Below are positions 949-58,670 of a stretch of DNA of 64,000 bases, piece after piece. Source of the DNA: Gracilariopsis chorda (lineage: Eukaryota > Rhodophyta > Florideophyceae > Gracilariales > Gracilariaceae); NCBI GenBank assembly GCA_003194525.1, contig NBIV01000082.1:62001-126000 (forward strand). Direction: 5' to 3'. The notes below the pieces were generated by a model. That model ran no database searches. It was not told the origin of the DNA and saw only the letters and a list, made by a program, of their open reading frames with translations. How positions within the stretch are numbered: the stretch's first letter is position 1; each line of letters starts with the position of its first letter. The translations under genes were made by a program, and so were the position numbers.

Positions 949-3388
949 CCTGACGAGTTCATTCTAACAGATGATCCACAGCCGGTAAAAGCTGGAGATT
1001 CCGACACTGTTTGGACAATATCAGAAACTACCAATCCTTGAAACCGAAAGAACATCAAATTTTTCTTTAACTCAGAAAGAGAGGACAACGACAGTGTTGA
1101 TAACCCTGACGACGCAGAAGTCACGAACACGGAGTCAGATAGTTCACAAGACGGTTCTATGAACGCTGATCAACAAGCGAGCGTTACGGAAGAAGACGTT
1201 CAATAACTGCATACCGAAATTTTTACGAACCATCCGCAAACAGTACACATATCAAACTCATCAAACGCTCTCAATGCGTGGCAGATTTTAATTCAAGACG
1301 TTTGGTTCTTTTTGTTTAACGGAGATGTAGACACTCTCCTGGACAACAGCATTGATTCTATCCACTCTGCAGAGCCATGTCAAGAGAACAACCCGGATTC
1401 AAATGATGGAACCCGAGGGCATCTGGAGGGACTCGAAGACTGGGAGTACGCGTCACCTTTTCAGTCATTCAAAATTGACATTGACGGTATCAATCAATCA
1501 CTAGGGAAGCGTTTCCGTTTAGAATCAAATCATGTTCTAGAACGGATCACACGAGAGGCTGAAGAACGGATCGGTGTACGGAACTTAATTACGCCGACTA
1601 ACTTAACGAGATTCAGTATACTAGATGTCTTTCTTCCAGAACATTTTATGCTCAAGGTCCTTTCAAATCTGAATCGCGTTCTAAAACGAAGAAGACAAAA
1701 ACCAACGACACCTATGGAGTTCAAAGGATTTCTGGTCCTGCATGTCTTGGCAGCATCGTACTCTTCGTCAGTCAGCACCATAACAGCCAAGCGAAACAAA
1801 GAATTTTTCTTTCAAATGGGCATTAGTAGTGGCCGATACGCAGAAATATTGGGTGCATTATCGTTTGCTGTAGGTCGAAGACAGCGGGTGGAAAGTGATG
1901 GAGACCGATGGTGTAACTTTCCGCAACGCGCCAACGCAATGATTACTGAGCTGGATGACGAATTAGCTGCAGTGAACAGACTCTTTCTTTACGTACCTGG
2001 CGTGACAATATTTAGTTTAGACGACGATCATCAGAGGTTCCGGTCCAGAGCGGTTGGACAGTTGACCGTGATGTCTCACGTGAATAATCCATAATAAGCT
2101 TTAGGACTGGTTAACAACGCGATGTGCTCCGCTCAGAATCCTATGTTTTTAGCCAGTCACCATTCAAGGGCTGGTGAGAAGATCATTGACGTTTGGGAAC
2201 GTTTGTTTAGGCTGATACAACGAATGCCGACGGTAGGGCCGGTGCGACCAATGACTGATGCTATCTTTGCTTCCGATAGAGGTTATAATGGAAAGAGCAC
2301 AGTTGATCATATTACAAATCGTATTGGTGCGACTGGAATTGGTACTTGCAAGTGAAGTCTAGACTACCCTTTTGGTTTTGGTCAAGGAGCAATTAGAAAG
2401 CGTCATAAGGGCGTAGTCGTGAGCGAATCCGGTTGCGGAGCAATTTTAAAACTCTAAAAGGAAGGCGAAAACCATAACGGGATGTAGAGTTGAGGCCATT
2501 GTTTATCGCGAAAGTTTGAGTGGCCGCATAGCTGCTGTTTATCATAACAACGATCGTTTGTTTTCTGCAGAACATTTTACTCTTATTCCGAAAGCTAGCT
2601 ATGAAGAAAAAAGAATGGAAGTTGATAGGAAGCTTTTCCATTCGATTTATGCCAGCTCTGTGTCTGAAAATGGTACACAAAGCAGCACAACTGGATGTCT
2701 TAGCACGACTTCAATTGCTAGATTGAAGGTCATGCAAGCGTTATCGGGCACTGTAGAAGTCACGCTTCTTCAATCAGAAAATCCCGGTTGGTTCCTAAAC
2801 CGTGCCTTTCAGTATACTTCTCCCATGACACAGGCATTTCTCCCTGCGTTGGCAGACAATCATGACGACCACGTCGAAGCGCTCTAGTCTCTCAGAAGCG
2901 GAAAGCAGATTGATCATAGGCCGTTAACGTTTACAATGGAAGAGAATGAAACAAAACAGAGTTTGATGTCTAAGTTTATTCTAATAAGCTACTCTTTGAA
3001 TACGAAGCCGAACTCGAACCCCACCTTAGATCAACGACCACAGCCTGTAGCTTCCCTAATGTCTTCAAATGCCACTAGTCTTCAAGCGAAGACAAGAAGT
3101 GAAATTCTTACCCTTCTTAGTGCTGTGGGTCACCGACATCCTCACTCTCTCCTCAAAAGACACCTCATTGAGAAAGCATTAGAATTGAAAACCTCTGTGG
3201 AGAACAACCTTGTAGAATTGTTTATACCGGCAGGACAAGAACTCAGACACTCGTAAAAACTGGATATGACGAAACATGAGCTTCTGGACGCTCTGTACAG
3301 GGCGTCGCTAACGCGTTGGGTGATGAAGCTACTGGTAAGCTCAGTTGGGATGAAAGAGGGCAAGTTCAATGAATCTCGGATTTTGAAT
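949..3388 (+). pseudogene. piggyBac-like transposase, N-terminal and catalytic part (broken)
   Basis: An acidic N-terminal stretch (about 949-1205) is in the same frame as the 260-codon open segment at 1312-2094. That segment has the piggyBac layout: a leucine-rich helix (FLPEHFMLKVLSNLNR), a conserved block around EFKGFLVLHVLAASY, YAEILGALSF, and then YVPGVTIFSLDDDHQRF with the first catalytic Asp near 2020-2028. A second block, FASDRGYN with Asp at 2275-2277, leads to a Gly-rich segment ending GIGTCK, as at the second Asp of the family. Open segments at 2516-2887 and 2936-3256 continue the same strand. Several stops and frame changes separate the blocks (for example directly after 2094), so it cannot make a full enzyme. 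LTR-C is inserted at 3389-3393. The piggyBac call rests on motif order, not on a database match. Confidence 0.55.
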
Positions 3389-4239: not shown

Positions 4240-4245
4240 TGTAAT

Positions 4246-5072
4246 TGTGGTGCAATGCCCCAAAGACGAAAAACACCGAAAGACGTTCGGGATCTTCCTC
4301 TCACGAGGTGAACCCAGTTGGGTAGAGCCCTCCCAGAGGTGTCACGGCGGAGCCGGTTTGTAAGACCAGGGACACCTGTCGCGACTCGCGCAGGGAGGTG
4401 AAGGCGAAGAATCGGTATCCGCGTGAGCGGGGTGTGATCCTCAGTAGAGGTATGTTTCCACGTAAGTGGGGGTGTGTCAGCGGATGCGCACACGAGGGCC
4501 GCGGGTAGCGGGAGGTGCTACCCTAAAAAAGGGGAAAAGAAAAGGCGGAGAGGAGGAAGAGAGGACGAAGTGAGTCGCAAGAGCGACGAACAGATACGGC
4601 AATGCCGGTGGACAGGACTCCCTATACAGGGCGAAACACCAATATGATTGGAACAATTATACTCCCAAGGATGGGCTTCTTTAGATGTGCAAGGGGGTTA
4701 GATGTCCCGTGGTTTACGGCGTTTCCCTCCAAGGGGGAGTGGAGCACGCGCGCAAGCGGCAACAACTAGAGCCAATTCCCCAGGTTGGGGTCCCTTGTTG
4801 GGGAAGGTTTACTGGTGCGACGGCAGTGCGCCGTCGCACTAAGTACTAGCTTCCCAGAAATGGGTGTGAAAATAATAAATAATATTAACTAAAATACTCC
4901 ACATTTCGTGGCAACATCCACTACTGTGGCCAACCGCCAATTGACCCAAAACCCTGTCCCACGTGTCCATACCCACCATTGTGGGGCGTAGTTCATACAC
5001 GCACTACACAACCGATAATATCGGGAAAACGATCAAGTACCTAGAATCCCTCCCTGAGGGCGTTGCACTTCA
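4246..5072 (-). repeat. LTR-A 3' LTR (in the element's own orientation)
   Basis: 827 bp, from TGTGGTGCAATGCCCC to CGTTGCACTTCA; matches 14796-15620. It contains many small hairpins, for example CCCAGTTGGG (4313-4322), CCGCGTGAGCGG (4419-4430), CCTCAGTAGAGG (4439-4450) and CCACGTAAGTGG (4458-4469). The longest is a 10-bp stem at 4816-4838. Confidence 0.93.
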
Positions 5073-5086
5073 TATCCCCCCCTAAG
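5073..5086 (-). promoter_or_regulatory. Polypurine tract of LTR-A
   Basis: On the minus strand, CTTAGGGGGGGATA directly precedes the 3' LTR. This is the usual place and composition of the primer for plus-strand DNA synthesis, and it fixes the element's orientation independently of the coding sequence. A similar tract is found beside LTR-H at 56350-56365. Confidence 0.75.
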
Positions 5087-5127: not shown

Positions 5128-6915
5128 ATGGGTGATAAAAGCGCGTGCTCTGTCTCCGGTTCTCCGGTTAATCCCTCTGCATCAGAGTCACCAAGCGCAC
5201 AAACGACAACAACAGCCACCCTCGACAAGGGAGAAATGAACGACGACAACAACATCAACAACCACAGCCAACCTCCGAGGCTTCTCGGGCGATACACCAC
5301 CGGTTTTCGGTCAGTTCCCCTGCCTCAGGGCGATCGACATCCGGTACAACCGGGGAATATGGCTGCTGCAGCCGACCATCCCTTCGCACTACCACCTTCG
5401 GTGGTGTCCTCCGGAACCACTCCGGTGTCCAACTGGCCAACCTACAACACCCTGGTGGGGCTCAACCCGATGAATCGGAATCACGCGTCGCGCCTGCGCC
5501 TTGCCCCGTGGTTCCACCCGGTCGCTGTCCTCAATGAGGGCTTGGTCACCGCTTACGCGGATGGCTCAGACACCCTTCCGGGGGATCTGCCCAGAGCAGT
5601 CACCACATCGTGGGATTGGCGTCACCGGATTGCGATTCCGCGTCACCACCTCCGAAGGAATTCGGGCGAGACCGTCGCTGCGGTGCACACCGCGTTGACG
5701 CGCATGGCATATCAACGGCAGAGCCGGGCTCCATTCGATGTACCGGTCCCACCGGAGTTTGGCTTCGACGTTACCTACTTCCGCACTCGAGGGGAGGTTG
5801 GGTACGGCGAGAACCTGTTCCGCCTCGAGACCCTCGCTTGGAGGAATTTCCCCGCAGCGCGGCAAGAAGCCCTTTGCTGGGAGCGACCGATCATTCCGGC
5901 GGAGTTCAGGTACCTTCCCCGGCAATACCGGTCCAACTGTCTCCAAAACTTCATCCGCTACGAGCGGCGTTGGCGATCCCGATTCGGGTATTTTATCCCG
6001 TATCAGAACGTGGAGATAGAGCGGATTGCGCCGCCTCACCGACTAGGTCGGTATGTAGCACTCCCCGAGTGGTGGCGCTTCCATGAAGCCTGCCGGGGGT
6101 GCTACATAGAACTCCCGCCGGTACTTACGTACCTCGGTTCGCTGCTCATGCAGGATCCCCGGTCGGGGTTGTGGTCCATAGTGGTTACGGAGTGGGCGGC
6201 CCGCACTGCGGCTTATATCCTCAACGAGGCTTACGACCAGTATCGTCTCTGGTTCCTTCAACCGCGTGTGCGGGCAGCGATCCGAAACCTGGATCTTCGC
6301 ATCCCCCTTGGGGGCCAGGCCAACAATGAAGAGGTCCTCCAATTACTTGGGTACATCGACAGCGTTAGCTGGAGTGAGGTCCCACTGGAGCAAAGTGGTC
6401 GTCTGGATGGCGGCAGCGGTAACACCAGTGGTCCGGGACTCGGTAGAAACACCGCCCTTGCGGGGGATTTTATCTACTTCGACCCCTGGGAGTTCCGGGA
6501 AATTTCCTCCGAGGAGGCGCGCGAGCTTCGCGATACGCCCCGGCATGTGCTGGAAGACCACCCTGTTGGGTACGTCGATTCTGACGACTACTACCGCGCA
6601 TACGGCGGGGATGACCCAATGGTCGATAACGAACCGGAAGAACCCGGGGAGATGGACGTAGGGGAAACCGGCGCTAGCGCGGAAGTTTTCCCAGAGGAGG
6701 TATCTCCGGCCGAGCCGGCTGCTGACCCTTCAGCGGCAAGTGCCGGACCTTCTATCCCCAGCGGGGTGATGGCGAATGAAAACGAGATCATCGCACGTTT
6801 TCTCCGGGGTGCCGGTCAGAGCGCTGCCGAGGTATCGGGGGATGTCACCACCATGGCGGACGCGTTGGCCTACCGCCTCGCTGGTGGTTACGCCCCGGAC
6901 GATGGGGGTGAGTGA
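5128..6915 (+). CDS. Antisense ORF of LTR-A, 595 residues, unknown function (looks whole)
   Basis: An uninterrupted ORF on the strand opposite to gag-pol, in the spacer between the integrase end and the 3' LTR. The ATG at 5128 has A at -3 and G at +4. Residues 1-55 are rich in Ser, Thr, Asn and Gln. The core, about 60-430, is rich in Trp, Tyr, Arg and Pro, with blocks such as LRLAPWFHPVAVLNEG, RFGYFIPYQNVEIE and GLWSIVVTEWAARTAAYILN. An acidic tail (DDYYRAYGGDD, EPEEPGEMDVGE) precedes a short helical end. No signal peptide, membrane segment or known catalytic motif is visible. An AATAAA lies 87 bp after the stop. A decayed relative exists at 56.5-58.6 kb (LTR-H) in the same place beside an LTR. 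Antisense ORFs in the pol-LTR spacer are known in some plant gypsy elements, but I cannot link this protein to them. Function unknown. Confidence 0.8.
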   Translation: MGDKSACSVSGSPVNPSASESPSAQTTTTATLDKGEMNDDNNINNHSQPPRLLGRYTTGFRSVPLPQGDRHPVQPGNMAAAADHPFALPPSVVSSGTTPVSNWPTYNTLVGLNPMNRNHASRLRLAPWFHPVAVLNEGLVTAYADGSDTLPGDLPRAVTTSWDWRHRIAIPRHHLRRNSGETVAAVHTALTRMAYQRQSRAPFDVPVPPEFGFDVTYFRTRGEVGYGENLFRLETLAWRNFPAARQEALCWERPIIPAEFRYLPRQYRSNCLQNFIRYERRWRSRFGYFIPYQNVEIERIAPPHRLGRYVALPEWWRFHEACRGCYIELPPVLTYLGSLLMQDPRSGLWSIVVTEWAARTAAYILNEAYDQYRLWFLQPRVRAAIRNLDLRIPLGGQANNEEVLQLLGYIDSVSWSEVPLEQSGRLDGGSGNTSGPGLGRNTALAGDFIYFDPWEFREISSEEARELRDTPRHVLEDHPVGYVDSDDYYRAYGGDDPMVDNEPEEPGEMDVGETGASAEVFPEEVSPAEPAADPSAASAGPSIPSGVMANENEIIARFLRGAGQSAAEVSGDVTTMADALAYRLAGGYAPDDGGE

Positions 6916-7002: not shown

Positions 7003-7008
7003 AATAAA
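7003..7008 (+). terminator. Putative poly(A) signal of the antisense ORF
   Basis: AATAAA, 87 bp after the stop of the 595-residue ORF and about 100 bp before the convergent end of pol. Its position would end a plus-strand transcript without running far into pol. LTR-H has the same hexamer 18 bp after its related ORF (58665-58670). Confidence 0.5.
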
Positions 7009-7106: not shown

Positions 7107-10100
7107 TTACCCAACTTGGGCATTAACCAGCGAGGCTGGGGCTGCAGTTCCCGTTTGACGGTGGTATCGCAGGACCTGCGACCGTGGGAGGTGTTCCATT
7201 GGCTCCCACGTATCCCCACTGGGGTCGTACCCGTACCAGCGGACGCGGTATTGTAGAATACCATCCTGGTCCCAAGTGTGTCCGACAAGTCGTTCTACTA
7301 CGAACTCTCGTTCGTAGACCTGCCGGCCGTGCCGGGTGGTGGTTGTACTCCCTTGCGGGGGCTGCCCGCTGTGCGGTATAATGTCCCTTAGCAGGGTGTT
7401 CGGCGATAACTCCGGCGTTGCCGTGCGCTGTGATAGCGGCCGCTGCTCATGCGGGAAGATATCCCTCAAGAGGGTGTGTGGTGCCACGGTTTTCACCGGC
7501 AAGTCATTCCCCATTGGGGCAGGCTCATTTCCGCTTTCGCGGTATTGCGGGCGAACCGCCAGTCGGCGGGGGACTTGGGCTCCGCCTTCGCGGTTGAGCT
7601 CAAGAACCGCGGGTTTGCGGGAAGATGACCGCTCCTGCGGAATCGGCATTTCCACAATCCCCTGGGGGGTCCCGTGCGACACGGTGATTGGGTGGCAAAC
7701 CGCCTCCCTGCCAGGCGCACGAGCGCTCTGCACCATACGTTCCGGCGATGCAGTGGTGTCCCCGGCTACTGACGGGTTGCCTGGGGCTAACTCCGGTACA
7801 CTGGTATTTTGGTCAAAATTCCCCTTTGGGGGGTGCCGGGCAGGTGCCGATGACACCCTTTTCAGGGGCTTGGCCGCTAAGTGCGGTGCACCGTCTCCAT
7901 GCAGAGGAGCAGCGTCCGGTATGACCGGTTTCGAGCGTGCGATGGCGTGCGTTTTTTCCGAGTTCCTCGGTTCTTCCCCGCAGCGTTGCGGGAGGTGGCG
8001 CAAATTATTCCCCGGAACGGGGGTTTCAATTCCGTCGACGACGGGAGGCGTTTCCGGCGCTTGCGGGCCAGGGCCTGAAACTTCGGCTGCGGCTTGGCTG
8101 CCCTTTTCCCCAGGTTGGGTGTGGGGATTTCCCAGCGGCGCTGGTGTATCTGGGCGCCTCTTCTCCGCAGGGCGCGGGTCTGATCGACCTGATTGAACCG
8201 CTTCCGCGGGGACTTCCGCCAACGGCGGCTTCGAGGCATCGCCCTGCTCAGGGGATTGAGGGCGATCGTCGCCGTATTCCCGTAACGGGGATCCCTCCCT
8301 GACAGGGCCGTGCGGTAGCTGCGTTTCAACATCCCGTTGCGACGGCAATATCGTTCCTCGAAAACGAGTGTTCTCCTCCCCCTTCTTAGACGGAGCGGTG
8401 GGATAAGGGATAACAATCCCCGCCTGGCGGGTGTAAATTCGCGCCAGGGGGGCGGGCGCTGAGAGTCCCGAATTACCCGGCTGAGCCGGTGAGTCCGACA
8501 GGGTCGGTAGGTCTGAAAGTCTCCGGCTGGGGTGTGGTAGTACCGTAGGCCTAGTACTCCCGGAGGATTCCGGTGTTGCAGAGTCCGTAGAAACGGGATG
8601 TTTTGAATCCAGGATTACCTCTGAGGAGGGAGGGGGGGCGCGTACGACACGATTGCGGGAGATCCGCTCGTGTGCTCCACCTATCTCTACAACGACAGTG
8701 TCGGCATTAACAGAGATGGCCTTGAAGGGTCCGTCCGCCACAGGCGAGAGTTTGTGACGCTTCTCCCGTTCCGGGTTGTAGTACTCCTTCCTGATGAAGA
8801 CGTAGTTATTTGCCCGAATCGGGGGGGTCTTTCCTCGCAAGCGAGCGTCAAAATCCCGCTTGTAAGCGGCTTTGGCCCGTGCCATAGACTTCCGCGCAGC
8901 GGGGACCAGCTTGGAAAGCCATTGCTTCCATTGCTGCCGGTAGATACCCACAGATGGGAAATTGTCCAAGGTAGCTTGGGGTTCCAGCGCCACAGGCGGG
9001 GGTGTTCTAGATAGAACCAACTCGAATGGCGAAAATCCGGTAGTCCGGTGTACCTGCGTATTGTACGCATAGGTTACCGCATCATCGTACATGTCCCAGT
9101 TCTTTGGGTGCTCTGCGACGTAGGAACGTAACGCCGCGAGTAACGTCCGGTTAAACCGTTTAACTTGCCCATTACACTGGGGGTGGTAGGTAGTCGTGAA
9201 CAAGTTCTTGACATCCAGGATGCGACGAACATCCTGGAAGAACTTGCTCACGAACTGTTTCCCGTTATCGGAGAGCACCTCTACAGGGGGACCGTAGACA
9301 AAAATCCAGTGCGTCACCAGAGCCTGGGCCACCGTGAGAGCGGTTATCCTCCGAAGAGGGACGGTCCGTACCAGCTTAGAAAAGCGGTCGGTAATGACAA
9401 GTAGAAACTTGTTTCCACGTTTCGTGGTGAGTAATGGTCCGAGAATATCGATCGCGATAAACTCGAGCGGCGTCCTTGCGGGGAATAGTTTCATCTTGTT
9501 CGCATTTTTGGGGAGCTTGACGCGATTCTTCGCGCATTCGCTACAAAACCGCACGGTTGCGTAGCAATCCACCGCCAGGGCGGGCCTCCAATGGGGGCGT
9601 AGTGTGATAGATGTAACACCCGTGACTACAGGGAATGAGGTACCACAATCTGTGGGCGGGCTTCGACCTTCATTACGAGGTAGCCTTTGTCGTTTACCCC
9701 GAAAGGGAGATCTTCACCACCGTTGATACGGGCACGAACCCTCGTACAGAATGGGTCGCCGAATTGTTCTCGGATCATTTCTTCCGGTGATACCGGTACG
9801 AAGTTTCCCGGTAACCGGTTCTCAGATTCATCTCGCGATGCGAGTAGTTCGTCAAATTCAGCATCCTCGTCCCAGTTTTCTGGCCCAGCCTCGACGGCAC
9901 ATTCCGGATTATCCGGGTCTATGGCCATGAAACATGGGACTTCATCATCCTCCGTTGGGAGTGCTTCCCCACTTGTGGGTAACCGCGACAAAGTGTCGGC
10001 CTGGGTGTTCTGCGCGCCCTTTTTATAAATGACTTGAAAGTCATATTCCGCGAGGCGGAGTCTCCAGCGCATGAGGCGTCCCGACGGGTCGGAGATATTC

Positions 10101-12498
10101 ATCAACCACCTCAATGAGGAATGATCCGTGTACACGGTGAAGTGAATTCCCGTAAGGTAGGGGCGCAGAGTGGTCATCGCCCATATGACGGCGAGGCACT
10201 GTTTCTCCGATACGGAGTAGTTCCGCTCATGAACATTGAGCGAGCGCGACCAATAACCATTTGGATGTCGTTCCCCCTTGGGGGTGGTTTGGAAAAGGGC
10301 ACACCCGACTTGGTAGTGGCTCGAGTCCGTATCTACGGAGTATGGCAACCCAAGTTTTGGGAGATGTAGGATTGGTGCTGATGTGACAGCCTCCTTCAAG
10401 GAGTTGAAGGCTTCCGATTACTCGGGCGTAAATGTTCCCAGTTTTGGGGGATTCCCCTTTCGCAACAACGCGTTCAGGGGCGCCGCAGTATCCGAAAAGT
10501 TCGGGATAAACCGTCGATAGACGTTGACCAGCCCCAGAAAGGAGCGCAGTTCCGTTTGAGTACGGGGCTCTTTCGCCTCGATGAGGGATTTTACTCGAGC
10601 TTTCTCGATCGCTAACCGTACAGGACGGATAATGTGACCCAGATACTTCACAGTATCTGTGAAAAACTCGCATTTCCTCAACTTGAGGGTTATTCCCGCA
10701 TCGCGGAGTACGGTCAGCACGTCTTGGACGTGAGTGAGATGGTCGTCCAACGAGTTGGAGAAGATGATAATATCATCAAGGTAGACCAGACAACTCCGCC
10801 ACTTAAAGCGGTTGAGTAGAATATCTACTGCACGCTGAAAGTTGGGGGGGCGTTGGTTAACCCAAATGGCATCCGCTTGAAGCGGTACGTTCCTGCGTGG
10901 CAGGTGAATGCGGTTTTGTCGCGATCCTCCTGTCTGACAGGTACTTGCCAATATCCCTAATTGGCATCAAGGGCCGTGAACACGGTGGCGTCTCTAAGGG
11001 AGTCAATGCACTCGTCCATACGAGGGATAGGGTACGTGTCCCTAACGGTCACGGCATTGAGCCGGCGGTAGTCGACACAGAACCTCCAGGTTCCGTCGGC
11101 CTTTAAAGCCAGTACAACTGGGGATGCCCAGGGTGATTGAGCGGGCTCAATCACACCTGCGCGGAGCATCTTGTCTACTTGGGACTGCTCCTCTTCCCGA
11201 GCTTTCGGACCTGCCCTGTAAGGGGGTTGTGCAACCGGTCGCGCACCGGGGATTAAATCGATCCGGTGTTCCGTTGCATTAATCTCGCCAAGCGAGCCAT
11301 CCCACATTGTGTTGAATTCCCGTAACATGGTACGGAGTTTGTCCCGGTGCGACTCTGGCACGTGGCTGAAGTCCAGCGCTTCAAGTGCTTTTTCCGGATC
11401 ATTCCAGTCGTTGCTCGATGGAGCATTGTCCTGTGGAACAGGTGTGGTTCGCAATTCGGAGTTACTCGGTATGTTCGACGCTGAAGTAGCGGTTTCCTCC
11501 CCCTCCTTAGACTTGACGTCTTCGAACGGCGGGGCGAACTCTTCAGAAGGGGTGGTAACTCCGAGTACATCGGCGGCTGTCATCTTCGTTGGCAGCATTC
11601 CCATAGGATGGGGGGTTACAATCCCAATTACTTGGTGTTTTACCAGATACTGGGGGTGTTTGCCAAGGTTGGCAACCAATATCCGGAAAGGAACATCCGG
11701 GGAAATGGAGACAATTCCATTAGCCAGCGCCAGCTGGGATTTCTCGTAGAACGAGGCGAGGGGTTGTATAACCCGAAGACCGTGTTGACGGGAATTTACC
11801 TGTACCCAGACTTGGGACTCACCCGGTAAAGAAACCGAGGCAGCGACGCGGAGCTTGGTGGACTCGCGGGACGCGGGCGGTGGTTCCTGCGCAGCAGGGA
11901 GAGGAACGTGTTTCCGAGAGGACCGCTTTAGCGGGCGGCGAACAATCGGAACCGACGATCCGTCGTCAAGTTCTACACGCCTGAGGCGGGGCCTGATTGC
12001 GTCGACAAATCTGTCGCAGTAATCACATCCCAGTATGACTGGTGCTGCCAATGAACGGCAAACGATGAAGTCCAACTTCACCACAGAGGTACCAAGTCTC
12101 ACGACGAGGTCCACTGTGCCCACCGTTTGTAACGGATTGTTGTTCGCATCCGAAATGTCGGGGACCGCGTCAGAGCGGATACGAGACCACACAAGCGGGG
12201 GTAACAGTGCTTCCACAACAAAGTTGGGGCCTGCACCTGTATCCAGGACGGTGAGAAACCTCACCATAAACTGGGGGTCAAGGCCAAGGTCGGCATAGAC
12301 CTTATAGTTGCGCTTGGCCAAGACCAAGACTCTACCGGGAATTCGGGGATTTTTACTCCGTATCCACGGGCGACGCAACACACCGAGGTGCGCAGAGTCC
12401 GCGTCAGCGGTGGCTTTCCTCGAGAGGACTTTCACCGGGGAGCGAGGCGAGGACGCCTCGGGCGCCAACAGCCTCGTTCTTGAGGACGCCTCTCCCAA
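7107..12498 (-). pseudogene. LTR-A pol: protease, reverse transcriptase, RNase H, integrase, linker, chromodomain (fossil)
   Basis: Minus strand, Ty3/gypsy order. The protease has the loop VLDTGAGPNFV. The reverse transcriptase shows WRFCVDYRRLNAVTV and YLDDIIIFS. RNase H has PYSVDTDSSHYQVGCALFQ and YTDHSSLRW. The integrase has FCSECAKNR, FIAIDILGPL, VLSDNGKQF and YHPQCNGQ. After the integrase core comes an unusually long Pro/Ser/Glu-rich linker of about 430 residues. It ends in a clear chromodomain near 7140-7310 (YEREFVVERLVGH, LQYRVRWYGYDPSGDTWEPM), with the aromatic residues that bind methylated histone tails in this family. In chromoviruses this module is thought to direct integration to marked chromatin. 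The region is broken. Confidence 0.88.
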
Positions 12499-12515
12499 AG
12501 GGGAGACTCCCTCAG

Positions 12516-14690
12516 TTAGTTTTCCGCCTTCGGCGGTGGGTTGATATCCTCGACAACGAGTGCTTCATCCCGTTGACGGGGGTTTCTATCCGCATAAGCG
12601 GGGGTTGCAACGGATGGTTGCGTGATCTCCCGAATCGGGGTGCATGAAGCTTGCCGCGCACGCGGGGTCTGTGGTAGGGCATGGGAAAAGTCCGTTTTAG
12701 CACGGAGGTAGGAAGCCGTCGGGACGGAACGTTTCTCCTCTGGAGTGAGGGCCTCATACTTTGCCACCACCTTGGCCATATCCTTCAGTGAACAAATACA
12801 CTGAGGTGAGGTATGGCCATGGGCATAGCACAGGTGGCAAATGAGAGCCAATACCGCGACACGCGGATTATTATTCCGAGTATCGGAGAAGCGAACCGCA
12901 GGGCGGGTGTCAGTCCACCCAGGCCGTTGATAACGGGATTGACCGTTTGAAAACGGGAGTCGTTGGGGTTGAACCTGACTGTTACCACCGTACAAAACGG
13001 GGTCTTCCGTTCCCGTATCACGGGTCATCTCCGTCGTTGACGGTAAATCACTGGTGGGTATCGACACACCATCCTCCAGCACCAAATGCACGGTATCAAA
13101 TCCCTGTGCAAGGTTCCCATCCGTGGTGAGCGGGAGAGAGGAAGCTTCGCTTTCCAGCAACAACGCGTTGGCGGATTTAGACCGATTGTTCGGAGTTCTT
13201 GCACGAAGTGCATCCCCTTCCGCTCGGGCGTGTTGGACCAGCTCGAGATAGGTGATCCTCCGCTTGTCCTCCCGATAACGGGTAACTAAACTCCGGATTG
13301 CCGGGTCAAGACCATCGATTAACATGGTACTGCGCTCCCCAGCGGGGTATACGTTACCACATCTGTGGAAAGCCTTGTTAAGGCGCACCGAGTAATCGGT
13401 CTCGGTCTCTCCAGCACGCTGGCGTGTATCTTGCAAAGCGAGGATAGCCTGCTGAATAGTGGTGTTGGTGGCGTAGGAGCGCAGAAGATACTGCACAGCC
13501 TCCGGCCAGCAAAGTAACTCCTCCCTCGGAGGCACGAGAAGATCCTCTGACAGAGTTGTATTGGTCCTCCGCCACTCCCCGTAAGAAATACGGTAAAGCC
13601 AAATAGGCTTGTCCCTCATTCATACCAAGGATATCGGCCTCCGCTACAAAGCGGGATAGGAAATCCAGTACTAGGACTGGGTCCTCTCCAGTAAAATACT
13701 GGTTGCGGAGCGAGAGCTGCATTCGCTTAATGCATTCTCGCACCTTTCCCGTACCACGGGGCGTACGTCAAAGTGACGAGTCTTCGAGCCGGTAGTACCG
13801 GTATGATAAAAGCTTCCGGTAATCCGGGTTTGTCGGTTTCAATTCCTGGAGACCGGGGTGTCTTCTCCCCTTCTGGCGGGTTCGGACCACACCTTCAGTG
13901 GCCCATGACCACTTCGAGCGGGAGGAGTAGCCTCGCTTCTCGTCCTCCGAGTCGGAGTCCGAGGAGCTCGAGCTAACCGAATGGTTTCGGGATGAGTCCG
14001 ACGATGTCGAAGAATCGGAGTCCGAATATTTTCGGTGGTGTTTCCGTCGATGACGGCGTTTCTTCTTCCCAGCAAGCTGGTCGTTGTGCGATGCCTCGTT
14101 TACCGGATCATCCGGGAATGGTTTGTCCATGAGGACGAACTGCTCCAGCGTCTCCAGGCGGGCACCAATCCGATCAAATTGGGCCTCAAATCCTTCGATG
14201 AAGGTGGCGGGTTGTCCCAAACTCTCCAACACGGAGTTGAAGTCAGACCGTAAAATACGGAGTTCCTCGGCGACCTCCTTTACGGGGGTTGCCAACACCA
14301 CCTTTTGGAGGGATTTTAGTTCCCCTACAAGGGTGTCATAGGCGGTCCACAGAGCGCGGATCTGGGATTCCAGGGAAGTCCCCTGCGGGTTGTTATCGCC
14401 CGTTCGACGGGGGCTTGAAGCCGCGACAGCGGGAGCAGGCCGGGGTGCCTGGGGCACTGCGACAACAGCCGGAGTCGATGCTGCACTCCCCTGCGGGGGT
14501 GATAACGAGGGCAAAAGAAGGTTCCGGGGGTCCCGGTCGGGGGTATCATTCCACAATGAAGCGGCGCCGGCACGTCTGCACTTTTCCGTATAGGGATACG
14601 GGGTACGAACCGAACTTCGGAAGTGTCCGCGTTGTCGCGGGAGCGACTACGCGTAACCACTGGCTCCGCATTGGAGGGATTTCTCGACAT
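12516..14690 (-). pseudogene. LTR-A gag (fossil)
   Basis: Minus strand, directly upstream of pol. The N-terminal part is Pro/Ala-rich, then helical (SLESQIRALWTAYDTLVGELK), followed by a very basic stretch (GKKKRRHRRKHHRK) and a long Ser/Asp stretch. The gag core continues with FTGEDPVLVLDFLSRFVAEA, and a CCHC zinc knuckle (CHLCYAHGHTSPQC) stands near the end, as expected for the nucleocapsid part that binds the element RNA. The order matches Ty3/gypsy gag. The region is broken. Confidence 0.75.
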
Positions 14691-14795: not shown

Positions 14796-15620
14796 TGTGG
14801 TGCAATGCCCCAAAGGGGAAAAACACCGAAAGACGTTCGGGATCTTCCTCTCACGAGATGAACCCTGTTGGGTAGAGCCCTCCCAGAGGTGTCACGGCGA
14901 AGCCGGTTTGTAAGACCAGGGACACCTGTCGCGACTTGCGCAGGGAGGTGAAGGCGAAGAATCGGTATCCGCGTGAGTGAGGTGTGATCCTCAGTAGAGG
15001 TATGTTTCCACGTAAGTGGGGGTGTGTGAGCGGATGCGCACACGAGGGCCGCGGATAGCGGGAGGTGCTACCGTAAAAAGGGGAAAAAGTAAGGGCGAAG
15101 AGTAGCAAGAGAGGACGAAGTGAGTCGCGAGAGCGACGGGGGCGAACGGCGATTCCGGTAACAATATCCCTATACAGGGCGAAACGCCAATGCAATTGGA
15201 ACAATTATACTCCCAGTGATGGGTCCCTTTAGATGTGCAAGGGGGTTAGATGTCCCGTGGTTTACGGCGTTTCCCTCCAAGGAGGAGTAGAGCACGCGCG
15301 CAAGCGGTAACAACTAGAGCCAATTCCCCAGGTTGGGGTCCCTTGTTGGGGAAGGTTTACTGGTGCGACGGCAGTGCGCCGTCGCACTAAGTACTAGCTT
15401 CCCAGAAATGGGTGTGAAAATGATAAATAATATTAACTAAAATACTCCACATTTCGTGGCAACATCCACTACTGTGGCCAACCGCCAATTGACCCAAAAC
15501 CCTGTCCCACGTGTCCATACCCACCATTGTGGGGCGTAGTTCATACACGCACTACACAACCGATAATATCGGGAAAACGATCAAGTACCTAGAATCCCTC
15601 CCTGAGGGCGTTGCACTTCA
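14796..15620 (-). repeat. LTR-A 5' LTR (in the element's own orientation)
   Basis: 825 bp partner of 4246-5072. It should drive gag-pol transcription on the minus strand. The 10-bp stem hairpin is conserved here at 15364-15386, while a stretch near 15070-15180 is more diverged than the rest. Confidence 0.93.
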
Positions 15621-15625
15621 GTAAT

Positions 15626-15824
15626 ATAGTATCACGTGACGACTCCTTATAGTATTACCTAGCACCTGTTCATTTCAAATTCATATTGCTCAATATAATT
15701 CAAATACCAAAACGCTTCCTATAAGAGGAACGGCTTTTGGTATCAAGATGATGAGAAGCAGTAGCTTCCATCGTTGCAGTGTGTAAACGTGAATTTCAAT
15801 TGTCGATATTGCTCCTCTCTTATA
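15626..15824 (+). repeat. LTR-B 5' LTR, main part (first six bases at 4240-4245)
   Basis: Matches 20384-20582 across its length. With the six bases at 4240-4245 it makes 205 bp, the same length as the 3' LTR. The insertion of LTR-A within the first six bases of this LTR explains the split. Confidence 0.88.
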
Positions 15825-22499: not shown

Positions 22500-23931
22500 G
22501 AACAAGTCTGTTCTGTTCTGTGCGACTGCTCGCATCGATCCAGGATTATCCGAAAGGCCGTGGAGAGAATTGAAGAAAGTAGTCGACAAGGTGCACCAAC
22601 ATTTATGTGGCCACTCTACGTATACGGACATCAAAACACTTCTCAAAAGAAACGGGCTATGGAATGATCAAATTGATGGCTACCTTACAAGTACATTGAA
22701 GGAATGTACGGTTTGCCTAACAACCGCCAAGCCGAAGGCTTCTCGCAAAGTTTCACTCAGCAACATGAGCCGGGGTTTCAACTAAGTAATTTGTGTTGAT
22801 CATATGTACCTTGAGCAGTATTGTGTCATGCAAATCATGGACGCAACCTCTCGGTATTCAACCGGTGCAGTAGTTGAGAACGCCTCGATGGAACATGCTA
22901 TTCATGTCCTCGATATGCACTGGATTATACCCTTCTGGACCCCAGAAACTGTCGCGTTTGACCCAGCATTCAACAATGCTGTATTTCTGGAGTTTCTGCA
23001 ACACACCGGGATAGATTCAAGGCCGCTCCCACCTCGAAGGCACAACAAGAACGTGCTTGAGTCTAAGCATAGGGTTATCCGTGACGTCCTTCTCCGTATG
23101 AAGGAAGATTTGAATATTCCTTATCAGCGCAATCGTCCTCTGATGATCAGTCACACAATTTTCATTTCATACGATCTCTATGGTAACGATGTGATGTCAG
23201 CCCACGAACTTGCAAAGGGTTACGCTAGGCCACTTGAATCTGGTCAGCGCCCGACTCTACTGCCCCAAGAAATCGTAGACGCTCATCAAACTCTGATGAC
23301 AAAACGCAAGCTCACCGTCATTTTACACTCCAAGAGTTTGAAAGAATTCCCTATTTCAGTTGGCGATTTGGTGCAAGTGTTCATCAAACTCCAACATGAG
23401 AAAAGAGGAAAGTGGTCGCAACCGAAACCTGTTCTTTCGTTCGACATAGAAAGCAGGACAGTTACTGTCCCTGGTAAATCCGGCAGAACAGTGTCCGCAG
23501 CCAAAGAAGATATCAGACCCGCTCTTCACACCGAAGAACTAGCTACTGCTGTGCAACACGCTATTGAAGACATGGATCGGACGTTGGAATACTCCTTGTC
23601 GGACAACAATGGTTTCGCAGATGACGTACCCACCGAGCCGCTCGACAGTCCTCTGGTAGAGAGTGGAAAATCACTTCTGAACTCGGATTCAGAATCAATA
23701 TCTATCGGAACGCAATACCCGAGCGTAGGGGACCGCATTAAAGTGTACTGGCCCCAAGACGAGAGGTTCTATGAAGGAACTGTAACAAAACACAACCCCC
23801 GTACACAGAAGTACTCTGTCAATTATCTTGATGGAGACAAAGAAGTATTGAAGCTGCAGGAGAGAAGTGGAAATATGCCAAAGGAAGAAGTAAAGCGACC
23901 GAGAGAGGATCAACTGAAAGTGCGGAATTAG
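22500..23931 (+). pseudogene. LTR-C integrase with a Tudor-like C-terminal domain (fossil)
   Basis: The N-terminal zinc-binding part shows H-x3-H (HLCGH) and C-x2-C (ECTVCL). The catalytic core follows, with acidic positions in VDHMYLEQY, AFDPAFNN and NVLESKH that match the D,D,E order of retroviral-type integrases. At the C-terminal end (about 23719-23860) is a compact module: VGDRIKVYWPQDERFYEGTV, then YSVNYLDGDKEVLKL. The pattern of a short acidic barrel with aromatic residues and Tyr-x-Asp-Gly-Asp resembles Tudor-type chromatin readers. In chromoviruses a chromodomain at the same place guides integration, so a targeting role is a fair inference. The region is part of a broken element. Confidence 0.65.
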
Positions 23932-27375: not shown

Positions 27376-27888
27376 AAACAGTGTACAAAACATATTTGTT
27401 GGATGTCTGCTTCTATAGCGTTAAGAATAGTAAAACCGTAACCAGTACGTTCTTAAACTACGGTCCAAGTTATCACCAGAGTCACGAAAAGCATCCACGC
27501 CGTAAGGAAGAATGGCCCGAGTTGTGGTTTCGTGTGATTAGCAGTGATCCAAGTACGTCACACATCGTACCGATAAGTCTTTAGTCGATAGTTTTCAACT
27601 TTGTTCTTTTGATTTTTCTTTTCATCTCCATTGGTCTTTCTTAAGTGAAAAAGCTCTTCGCACAAACTCTTTCAACTCGCTTATGATCATATCTCGCACT
27701 TTCTCGTGTCACACTTTTACCTGTCCAATTTCATCCTTGGCGTCACCGCTCCTGTCGACAAATGTGCGCTGCCATCACTGTGCGCGCGGTTTCTGGCCTA
27801 TGTATTCGCCAACCCTGCACTCGGAAAACCGCGTCGGGCTCAAATCAGTTTTCTTGGATTCGACTAATCCAACTATGCTGAAGGCGCT

Positions 27889-28086
27889 GCGGGGTGAGCG
27901 GTGGGTCCCACTGAGTGCGTGGTGTGTCTCAATGGGTGAGAGATAGGGTGAGCTCACCTTGATCACGAGTGAGGTTCACCCACCAGCGGGACTTCCTCAC
28001 CCTGCCAGGGTGAAGTGGGACCTCCTCACCCCAACTTCATCCCAAAAAAAAGGGTGTTGAAATTCATCACCCTATGAGAACGGGGA
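27889..28086 (-). repeat. Right terminal inverted repeat of the piggyBac-like element
   Basis: Inverted partner of 502-699, ending CCCTATGAGAACGGGGA at 28086 and followed by TA. The same TCACC/GGTGA motifs are spread along it. Similarity to the left copy runs over the full 198 bp and stops at the GCGGGG border on the inner side. Confidence 0.75.
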
Positions 28087-55825: not shown

Positions 55826-56544
55826 GTATAGTAGAATACAGGTCCAAAGTCCAAGTGGGGAAGTAGTACCAATGAGGGTAGCGGCAGCAGAGTACCAGCA
55901 ACTAGGTTGACAGTCCACTGGGGTCTAGTTGTGTCTTGGGCACCTTCTCACGTGCAGGCACAATTGGCGGGTGTTATCTGATTTCCCTACAGGTCGGGTG
56001 CCCTCGTAACGATGGCTTGGAACCCTGTATCCGCTTGGAGCTTGAGGGCGACTAGAGGACGGAGGTGGTGCTTGCCTTTACTGCTCAGTGGCCGGCTGCA
56101 CCCGAGCCAACTAAGATAGTCGGTGAGATGCTCTAGACCACCGGTACCTACTACTAGAAAATTAAATAAAATACTACACTATTCTACCGTGCACTGTGCT
56201 GCAGTACCAGGTTTACTGGAGGTCACACTTCAGATCACAATTATCTACCACCCACGTGGCTAATTTTGGCACGAGCCAGCAGTTCTCTGGTCCTTCGTTC
56301 ACCTCTTCGGCACTCTAGCTTGCCAGTCATCTGGCCCTATTGTACTACATACTCCCCCCGTTAGTTGCTGCCGCCTCGGCAGAATCCACCGTCGTCCAAC
56401 TTTTCCCTGATGTCCATTTCCGTGCACTTCTGTTTAAAGGTTGGTAGGGATAGCTGCACTAGCGCTGATTGCGATCCCACTTGTCGATTGACTCGTTTAG
56501 CATCCCCCTACTAGGCCTTAATAAGCGCTGGGAAGGGACATTGA

Positions 56545-58646
56545 ATGCCCATTGGTCGTGCCCGCCTCCCTGTTTCGTATCAAATGCCAGTGGCCACGGG
56601 GATGAGTACATCACTTGTGGATCTATTGGGAACCCACGTCTACGACCGGGGTGTCGCTACTGCACGTTCGCAACCACTTCGTTCGCTCAGCTTCTTTTGG
56701 GTCGTCCCTTCTATCAGCACGGCGATTGCCCACGGGGGCCGTTGGTCTTCACGTTATAGTGCCCCCAGAAACCTACCAATACCACCGCTGTCCATTCTGC
56801 TTTGTGACTACTCCACTCGGCATGTCTTTTGGAACATATATGTACTTAACCCCTTGGAGCCTTCGCCCGCTGTACGAAGACAGTGAATGCATCCCGCTGT
56901 CGGCCGTCAGTGTTGAATCCTCTCGAATGGTTTTAGTCCCCGCCAGCAGCGCTTACGTCCATCCTGGGGAGAGGTATGACCATACCCTGGGGTGCAGTCC
57001 GATGGCCGTGAAGATCACACATTTGCCCGGTTCGGTCAAGGATTTCATCTGCTGCCAAGACCAATATTTTGACGCCCGCATATTCGCGGCAATTCCGAAT
57101 TATGTCTGTGAGAAGAAGAACGGGCGAGAGACCTCTTAGTACAACCGTTGGCTACATCTCTCCGCGGACGTCCAAGCAGTGGCGCGTTGCTCGTAGCGTG
57201 GTCCGCCCGGACATGCCGTAAGTCCAATGCCACAAAGAAGAAGATTACCAATGGAGGGCTAGCCGGCTCCTCGCGGACCTATATCTCTTACACGGTGACC
57301 CCTGGTGTTAACTCCCCCCTAGATACCATAACCTTCTGGCGCTGATGTGGTACAAGCTGCCATATGATCAGCTGTACTGGATTACCAACAGTTCCTATTA
57401 GAATGACATGATCTAACCCGACGGCCGTATCCGGACGAATTTGAAGTACTTCTTCTGCTGGCATCAGGTCGAACTCCATGACACGCCGCCGTCCAGTAAG
57501 GCCAACGTCTATCTTCCCATGCCGTCGGTCTCTGCGAGCCCTGAGGCACCCATATGGCATGTATCTAATCTCCTTATGGTCCCTACTCTGTCCATTGTGG
57601 CTTACAACACCACCCAGCTCCAAGGCGATTTCCATCAGCGACTCCCTTGGCTTACCTGGCAGGTCTTCTTTGTCGAATGGGCAGTATTCTGCCTCATGGC
57701 CTTTTTGTATACCGCTAGTACCGGCGTGCATGCCAATGTCCGTAAGACAGACCATCGTATTTAGAATGACGAAATCATTTCGAGTCTTGAGGGCCGATTG
57801 GTGCCCCTGCCTCCCCGCCACATCGCGTTCATTCGCGAGCTAGGGGTGCAGAACATAGTCCGAGAGACCGCGTATAGCGCAGAGCACACGAAGGAGCTTT
57901 TAGATTATGTCCCGCAGGTCGATTCGGCGAGGAACCCTCGATACCTGTTGTACGAATACGACGCAGACGAGTTCTGGGCGATTCCGGAGCATTTTTAGGG
58001 TCGCGACGATGGCAAACACTACGAGGCGAAGCCCTTATTCGATACCCTAATCGACGTACCGCGTCAGACCATCCCGGACTGTTATCCTCAGGCGATTGGG
58101 TTTGATGTCGCTTGCCTGTGACCTCTTTCTGATGGTCCGTAAACCGTGCCTGTCCCTGCTTCTTCTTGGGTGCCACCTTTAGAGCAACCCGTGGTCGAGC
58201 ATCCTGAGACGTCCATTGGTCCAACAGCCACCGTTACTAGTCCACTCGATTCTTTGACAGTCACTACGTCAGCGCCGCCTCCACCACCTGCGATATCTGT
58301 GGCCGTAACTCGAGTCTATGGGGAACTCGTCGACGTTTGCCGTTGGGCAGGCGTAACCAAGCCCATTGAGATCGGCGAGGCGTTGCTTGTGGTGCAGTCA
58401 TGGTTCCGTAGGGCGTCGCGGTACGAGTCCATGGTGGAGAGGAGCCAAGAGGTCATAGAGGCATTGGCGACCATTCTGGAGGAGAACGCTAAAGTTCTTT
58501 CACCTTCTGTGGCCACCAAGTTGGATAACCAATTCGGTCCGAACCTGACGGGCAGCGAAAATTCTCCGCCTGACTCTTCCGCGTCAGCCCATAGCCCAGC
58601 TCGCAAGCACGCGCGCATCGGTTATTCCGCTGGTCTTTCGGCCTAA
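56545..58646 (+). pseudogene. Relative of the LTR-A antisense ORF (fossil)
   Basis: Several plus-strand segments align in order with the 595-residue antisense protein of LTR-A. MYLTPWSLRPLYEDSE parallels LRLAPWFHPVAVLNEG. YFFCWHQVELHDTPPSS parallels YFIPYQNVEIERIAPPH. PWLTWQVFFVEWAVFCLMAF parallels GLWSIVVTEWAARTAAYI. ELLDYVPQVD with YLLYEYDADEFWAI parallels VLQLLGYIDSV with FIYFDPWEFREI. The final part (about 58146-58646) is helical and Ser/Pro-rich, with no clear counterpart. Function unknown. The similarity was found by eye. The copy is broken. Confidence 0.6.
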
Positions 58647-58664
58647 CTGGTCGTTGGCGTATTA

Positions 58665-58670
58665 AATAAA
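58665..58670 (+). terminator. Putative poly(A) signal after the LTR-H antisense ORF relic
   Basis: AATAAA, 18 bp after the stop of the ORF relic. The partner element LTR-A has AATAAA at 7003-7008 after its intact ORF. Confidence 0.4.

Follow-up and report, generated by a model that had tools for sequence, protein, structure and literature searches.

Structure of LTR-A and its antisense open reading frame

The window analyzed here, a stretch of 64,000 nucleotides from the genome of the red alga Gracilariopsis chorda, contains a gypsy retrotransposon, LTR-A, whose two long terminal repeats (LTRs) are 94.4% identical (Table 1). The gag-pol region of this element is read from the minus strand and consists of six successive open reading frames (ORFs) with five junctions between them. 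The gap between pol and the 3' LTR is occupied by a single ORF of 595 codons on the strand opposite to gag-pol. The start codon of this antisense ORF lies 55 bp from the inner edge of the 3' LTR, and an AATAAA motif at position 7003 is located 88 nt past its stop codon, ahead of the convergent pol stop at 7107. The original prediction had placed such an ORF between the integrase end and the 3' LTR, unbroken in an element whose gag-pol is broken about five times, and the coordinates of the ORF and the LTRs bear this out, the five gag-pol junctions being candidate breaks. Transcription of the antisense mRNA probably begins within the 3' LTR, from a promoter in antisense orientation, and ends past the AATAAA at 7003, so that the mRNA would stop short of pol. 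LTR-A itself seems to have been inserted in the first bases of the LTR of LTR-B, and the GTAAT duplication is part of the start of that LTR (4240-4245, 15621-15630).

Table 1. Coordinates of the features of LTR-A and LTR-H in the window.
Feature	Position	Strand	Basis
Target site duplication GTAAT of LTR-A	4241-4245 and 15621-15625	.	Sequence
3' LTR of LTR-A (sense direction minus); presumed antisense promoter of the ORF	4246-5072	-	LTR comparison
A/T-rich block in 3' LTR (28/30 A/T), 261 bp 5' of the ATG; possible TATA-like role	4867-4896	.	Base composition
Polypurine tract TTAGGGGGGGAT adjoining 3' LTR of LTR-A	5074-5085	-	Sequence
Antisense ORF of the LTR-A gypsy element, 595 codons (595 aa), ATG to TGA	5128-6915	+	
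Layout of the antisense ORF: variable N-terminus, conserved core (about residues 105-480), acidic C-terminal tail	5128-6915	+	Alignments, composition
AATAAA, presumed poly(A) signal for the antisense transcript	7003-7008	+	Motif scan
pol, 3' part: integrase core and chromodomain (chromodomain about 7179-7304)	7107-9572	-	Pfam, above cut-off
Rest of gag-pol: five ORFs, interrupted	9626-14556	-	ORF list
5' LTR of LTR-A	14796-15620	-	LTR comparison
LTR-H: probably a distant and decayed relative of the antisense ORF, from another multicopy branch	56350-58646	+	Profile searches
AATAAA past the LTR-H relative	58665-58670	+	Motif scan

The G+C content of the antisense ORF is 61%, which lengthens chance ORFs, and one might suppose that the frame is open by chance or is an artefact of G+C-rich antisense DNA. 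We assign virtually no probability to this explanation, which is already contradicted by the data. The chance of an open run of 595 codons at the local base composition is about 9e-9, and in the window copy each of the five remaining frames contains 8-21 stops, the annotated frame alone being open. Moreover, in four comparisons between subfamilies of the ORF (see below) pN/pS was lowest in the annotated frame (0.38-0.51, versus 0.95-1.72 in frames +2, +3, -1 and -3); only frame -2, which shares the wobble position, came near with values of 0.51-0.69, but it carries 17-26 stops. The same frame control was noisy in five pairs from within subfamilies (annotated frame 0.25-0.73, other frames 0.33-3.85). 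The intactness of the single window copy was considered as evidence in itself and dropped, since about one break is expected in 1.8 kb at the break rate of gag-pol; the case for the importance of the protein is made from family-wide statistics instead.

Elsewhere in the window, an ORF at 22804-23931 (+), apparently in a copia-like element, combines a weak integrase-core match with a Tudor-like domain at its C-terminus (PF21743, narrowly above the cut-off with E 3e-6), a possible chromatin-reading module that parallels the chromodomain of LTR-A. The ORF at 1312-2094 (+) has a weak DDE_Tnp_1_7 match (E 0.0013, below the curated cut-off) and is perhaps a decayed DNA transposon. A long inverted repeat is formed by positions 534-705 and 27882-28053, with arms of 172 nt that are 88% complementary and 27 kb apart.

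A multicopy family of antisense ORFs

The closest annotated protein, BWQ96_03215 of G. chorda (P0003), is 50% identical to the antisense protein (best 8000 candidates scored), and residues 1-491 of P0003 are present at 100% identity in the G. chorda genome searched; P0004 from Gracilaria domingensis is 47% identical. Three protein searches, each with the best 8000 candidates scored, yielded 10 distinct database proteins, two named as G. chorda and one as G. domingensis, and none of these 10 matches carries the name of a plant or a fungus. Viral contigs gave 19 pattern matches, none of which was confirmed. Pfam searches with the ORF and nine other proteins, and then with all 14 members of our alignment A2, revealed nothing convincing: the best weak matches were DUF6220 for the window ORF (P0001; E 0.11) and VirE1 for one other A2 member (E 0.018), and no capsid, zinc, membrane, bZIP or DNA-binding domain was recognized by Pfam. 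NCBIfam searches with 3 proteins were equally unconvincing, and the A2 profile had 0 matches among PDB sequences at E 10. These domain searches agree with the initial impression that no known motif is visible. AlphaFold models built from 8- and 11-sequence inputs had mean pLDDT values of 42 and 62, and Foldseek/PDB, Foldseek/BFVD and VIA-align returned no significant match with them, models so weak that a known fold could be missed.

Within the G. chorda genome, the ORF belongs to a large, repeat-borne family with hundreds of copies and six diverged subfamilies, which were compared as F1 to F6, F1 being the subfamily of the window ORF. Thirty-base probes for F1 and F4 recognized 299 and 111 sites, respectively, in the 91.3-Mb genome with at most 3 mismatches, counts that take in broken copies; the reversed patterns of both probes recognized 0 sites. 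Out of 1933 first-look candidates in a genome search with the window ORF, the best 74 had identities of 94-100%; 57 of these 74 best-scoring F1 matches are stop-free, a proportion that applies to this selection and not to the genome as a whole. The queries P0003, P0005 and P0006 had at least 82, 98 and 68 matches listed, respectively, some of them being two pieces of one copy and more diverged subfamilies being included. Representatives of F1, F3, F4 and F5 are 32-51% identical in pairwise comparisons, and 31 alignment columns are invariant among the 14 sequences of A2.

Antisense copies beside gypsy LTRs, looked for as a check on the original prediction, were found. All 30 F1 loci fetched for context and selection analysis, out of the 74 matches, have a pol C-terminus antisense downstream and an LTR-A-like LTR upstream. 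Among the loci of the more distant queries, pol lies antisense downstream in 26 of 35, namely 4/11 for P0003, 11/12 for P0005 and 11/12 for P0006, and in the remaining nine the element's own pol was not recognized within the fetched stretch. The seven P0003 loci (within L031-L041) that lack the standard layout comprise four without pol, two in which the pol match lies beyond the LTR and one with a different pol upstream. One fetched locus (L042) duplicates an F1 locus. The sequence that copies share 5' of the ORF reaches to about 884 bp (F1), 945 bp (F2) and 430 bp (F5) from the start codon, a limit that would fit the outer LTR edge, and in F4 it extends past the 909 bp fetched. An A/T-rich block (24-29 of 30 positions) is found 92-309 bp 5' of the ORF in 7 copies from six subfamilies. 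When 50 of the 51 subfamily sequences were scanned for AATAAA or ATTAAA, a signal was located 88-93 nt past the match end in 28/30 F1 copies, at 160 nt in 10/10 F4 copies and at 76 nt in 5/5 F5 copies, and none was present within 400 nt in the copies of F2 (3/3), F3 (1/1) and F6 (1/1). Some copies of other subfamilies (L056, positions 3-687, and L063, upstream of the ORF) are seemingly nested in gag-pol-like sequence of other gypsy elements.

The pol C-termini of F1, F3, F4 and F5 align over the chromodomain region. F1 and F3 are the closest pair for both pol (56% identity) and the antisense protein (51%), and the other pairs follow in much the same order. Because the identities of the two proteins agree in this way, they fit a joint descent of antisense protein and pol, four families being few for such a comparison. 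This bears on the idea that the ORF is a hitch-hiking gene of other origin, such as a captured host gene, a nested transposon or a virus gene that chanced into one element. The protein searches, with the best 8000 candidates scored in each, revealed no recognizable homologue outside the family, as such an origin would allow, but the ORF has the same location and strand in several divergent subfamilies and diverges together with pol, which makes this a very improbable explanation. It is recent capture that is contradicted by the shared position and co-divergence; an ancient capture is compatible with the ORF being a gene of the element.

A second candidate, in LTR-H, had been claimed as a decayed relative of the ORF. 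This region sits just inside an LTR-like edge (at about 56347) with a polypurine tract, and the AATAAA motifs that had been noted soon after the stop in both elements were recovered at 7003 in LTR-A and 58665 in LTR-H. A profile search over all six frames of the window gave its best match beyond the ORF itself at 57393-57686 (+), with an E-value of 0.11. When the search was limited to 56350-58660, frame +2 scored 5.6 bits, against 2.5 bits for the best of 283 scoring shuffles (300 made). An hhalign comparison produced one gapped collinear match of 145 columns with a score of 36.7 (E 0.001 as a single comparison, HH probability 20%), versus 17.7 for the reversed sequence. On the strength of the profile scores, the LTR edge, the polypurine tract and the AATAAA motif, LTR-H probably holds a remote, decayed relative of the antisense ORF. 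Where the earlier claim described four separate blocks in the same order, the alignment gave this one gapped match, and the case for LTR-H is weaker than had been stated, as the E-value of 0.11 and the HH probability of 20% indicate. The LTR has no partner in the window, no pol was found to the right of the relative, and its tentative designation as antisense depends on how the LTR edge and the polypurine tract are oriented. To its right, a gag-like ORF at 59856-60329 (-) contains a CX2CX4HX4C zinc knuckle recognized by eye.

Searches with the LTR-H region uncovered a further large branch in which long open frames occur. At least 42 DNA matches to the region, itself included, were listed in the genome, and its C-terminal (166 aa) and middle (115 aa) open pieces had at least 150 and 151 matches, respectively, some being pieces of the same copy. 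Among the H-branch matches, stop-free frames of 738-829 aa occur in at least 12 places, while the A-branch matches listed are mostly 586-673 aa long.

Selection on the antisense protein

Sixty-six loci were fetched, of which 51 entered the dN/dS sets (F1 30, F2 3, F3 1, F4 11, F5 5, F6 1). The 15 loci left out have an interrupted or incomplete ORF, or in one case duplicate an F1 locus, and the in-frame stops present in 3/30 F1 copies were treated as missing data. Pooled pN/pS, which is close to dN/dS in F1 owing to the low divergence, was 0.28 for the whole antisense ORF in the 30 F1 copies, with values of 0.20 for residues 105-480, 0.54 for residues 1-104 and 0.45 for residues 481-550. In the same 30 copies, pol had values of 0.36 for the chromodomain, 0.79 for the linker and 0.62 for the whole C-terminal stretch (406/435 pairs). 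The ratio near 1 that would have spoken against a function was therefore not observed, and this result, together with the antisense copies beside LTRs, supports the earlier claim that the antisense protein matters to its lineage.

Between subfamilies, median pS was 0.57-0.78, and dN/dS was 0.17-0.37 where synonymous sites were unsaturated (0.37 for F4-F5), no ratio being given for saturated pairs. Since synonymous sites have diverged to this extent at such low dN/dS, it is the protein that is conserved and not the DNA. Median ratios within F2 (0.79), F4 (0.61) and F5 (0.56) were higher; these are near-identical copies, and we take the high ratios as drift after insertion. Among the 30 F1 copies, variants shared between copies have an omega of 0.16-0.18. 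Those present in at least 4 copies comprise 13 nonsynonymous and 24 synonymous changes (omega 0.18), whereas singletons comprise 146 nonsynonymous and 93 synonymous changes (omega 0.51; Fisher p 0.004). Based on the difference between shared variants (0.18) and singletons (0.51), selection appears to act between transpositions and to relax in dead copies, which is the pattern of an element gene and not of a host gene.

These data also bear on a role in copy-number control, in which the antisense mRNA, as double-stranded RNA with the genomic RNA, or the protein, or both, would restrain the element. This mRNA would be the complement of the 3' region of the genomic RNA, and a role of this kind has been raised for plant antisense ORFs (PMC7264820). 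We consider it improbable, as synonymous sites vary freely (pS 0.57-0.78) while amino acids are kept, a pattern that a role of the RNA alone does not explain; moreover, a restraining protein should be lost by escape copies, yet this one is kept in diverged subfamilies.

Composition of the protein, known parallels and possible roles

Overall, the antisense protein is acidic (pI 5.2), with an arginine-rich basic core (pI 9.8 for residues 101-250 and again for 251-400) and an acidic tail (pI 4.1 for residues 481-595); the mean hydropathy (GRAVY) of its sections ranges from -0.19 to -0.61. A simple search for basic clusters found one only, KRRR, in 1/14 sequences. The protein contains 52 arginines and only 2 lysines (K4 and K34), followed by 561 residues without lysine. 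The K/(K+R) ratio is 0.02-0.12 in 13 A2 sequences (P0006 aside), versus 0.22-0.36 in six gag-pol pieces of LTR-A. From the base composition at each codon position 13 lysines are expected in F1 (P 2e-4); the shortfall is weaker in other subfamilies (P 0.006-0.10) and is significant mainly in F1 and F5, and the distant relatives P0006 (20 K) and P0009 (10 K) are less depleted. Every one of the 51 subfamily sequences contains a run of 169 or more residues without lysine; when 11 pieces of gag and pol from the window were examined, the longest such run was 162 residues in one piece and 52-130 in the other ten. With the threshold of at least 150 residues without lysine taken from PMC10665810, lysine deserts are present in all 51 subfamily sequences, in P0001 (561) and in P0002-P0005, P0007 and P0011, but not in P0006 (90), P0008 (100), P0009 (96) and P0010 (86).

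Lysine deserts that are conserved between relatives have been linked to escape from ubiquitin or Pup tagging, and Mycobacterium phages reportedly have many lysine-desert proteins, which was read as avoidance of pupylation (PMC10665810, PMC10169902). The antisense protein resembles these proteins in having long lysine-free stretches common to relatives, but it comes from a retrotransposon, a word that is absent from the main text of PMC10665810. The near-total lack of lysine might conceivably keep the protein from ubiquitination and degradation, a suggestion we make only tentatively.

Antisense ORFs between pol and the 3' LTR (aORF-3R) are described for Grande (gene23), RIRE2, Retand (ORF4) and PvRetro13, and for the fungal element Boty; Grande has its own antisense transcript, and its gene23 product localizes to the nucleus (PMC7264820). 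The original prediction had mentioned antisense ORFs in some plant gypsy elements, with which this source agrees, adding the fungal example. The function of such genes is called unknown in both PMC7264820 (2020) and PMC11963269 (2025). The red-algal ORF resembles aORF-3R in position, orientation, multicopy conservation and the absence of an assigned function. It is antisense to gag-pol (30/30 F1 loci, 26/35 others), and it is conserved like other element proteins (pN/pS of 0.28 in the 30 F1 copies, versus 0.62 for the C-terminal stretch of pol). It differs in its host, a red alga instead of a flowering plant or fungus, in residing in chromodomain elements and in its lysine desert; its apparent separateness from the Grande, RIRE2 and Boty proteins is judged from the 10 database matches, none of which is named as a plant or fungal protein. 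Antisense ORFs at this place were thus already known from flowering plants and one fungal element, and what is new here is the red alga, the chromodomain elements, a protein unrelated in the tests run and the lysine desert. The open-access literature searched listed no report of such ORFs from retrotransposons of red algae. The TRP28 protein of Retand (PF04195), encoded by an antisense ORF in nearly all recent copies, was proposed to bind nucleic acids, and Retand is a non-chromovirus lineage of Eudicotyledons and Liliopsida (PMC11963269). Both are antisense ORFs of multicopy elements, but PF04195 was matched by 0/14 family members at E <= 10 (with HMMER filters that drop most weak matches), and, unlike Retand, LTR-A has a pol with a chromodomain and resides in a red alga. 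An Env-like third ORF was also considered and rejected, because the ORF does not have the orientation of gag-pol.

HBZ of HTLV-1 is a bZIP protein. The genes for HBZ and other deltaretroviral antisense proteins are located next to the 3' LTR (PMC11963269, PMC7264820). The red-algal gene likewise lies beside the 3' LTR, and its layout, with a start codon 55 bp from the LTR and an A/T-rich block, suggests transcription from that LTR; unlike HBZ, its product has no bZIP or other domain recognized by Pfam.

Our best explanation, held with moderate confidence, is that the ORF is the third gene of the element and that its product, on which selection has been shown above, is an accessory protein encoded antisense in chromodomain gypsy elements of red algae. 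Somewhat less securely, this protein may work in the nucleus on the chromatin, transcription or RNA of the element, as an HBZ-like regulator or an anti-silencing helper. We favor such a role because the gene forms a compact unit beside the 3' LTR, because a basic core is combined with an acidic tail, and because Grande gene23 is nuclear. Points against it are that the protein is acidic overall, that a single basic cluster was found among 14 sequences and that no DNA-binding domain was recognized by Pfam. Alternatively, the protein could be a structural or intracellular-transport accessory, acting in particle assembly, in nuclear import of the integration complex or as an RNA chaperone, and not a regulator of expression. 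The constraint on it is at least as strong as that on the chromodomain segment of pol, its co-divergence with pol is what an obligate replication factor would show, and the arginine-rich core could bind RNA; we nevertheless find this alternative unlikely, as the antisense placement would imply a separate transcript that is untied to Gag, and no capsid, zinc or membrane domain was recognized.

The accessory-gene explanation can be extended to a more specific one, in which an antisense protein with a new fold, poor in lysine so as to evade ubiquitin or other lysine modification, would work in the nucleus against silencing or as a regulator and thereby allow the chromodomain elements of red algae to multiply. 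This combination is doubtful as it stands. For study, the family provides hundreds of copies within a single small genome, subfamilies that have diverged, evident selection on the protein and an oddity in lysine content that can be tested. If the combined reading is true, red algae are another group in which accessory genes of this antisense type arose, and evasion of ubiquitin may help such elements to persist. The red-algal family would then represent a further independent origin of retroelement antisense regulators, in addition to the origins in deltaretroviruses and in gypsy elements of flowering plants, and would bear a signature of escape from proteolysis.
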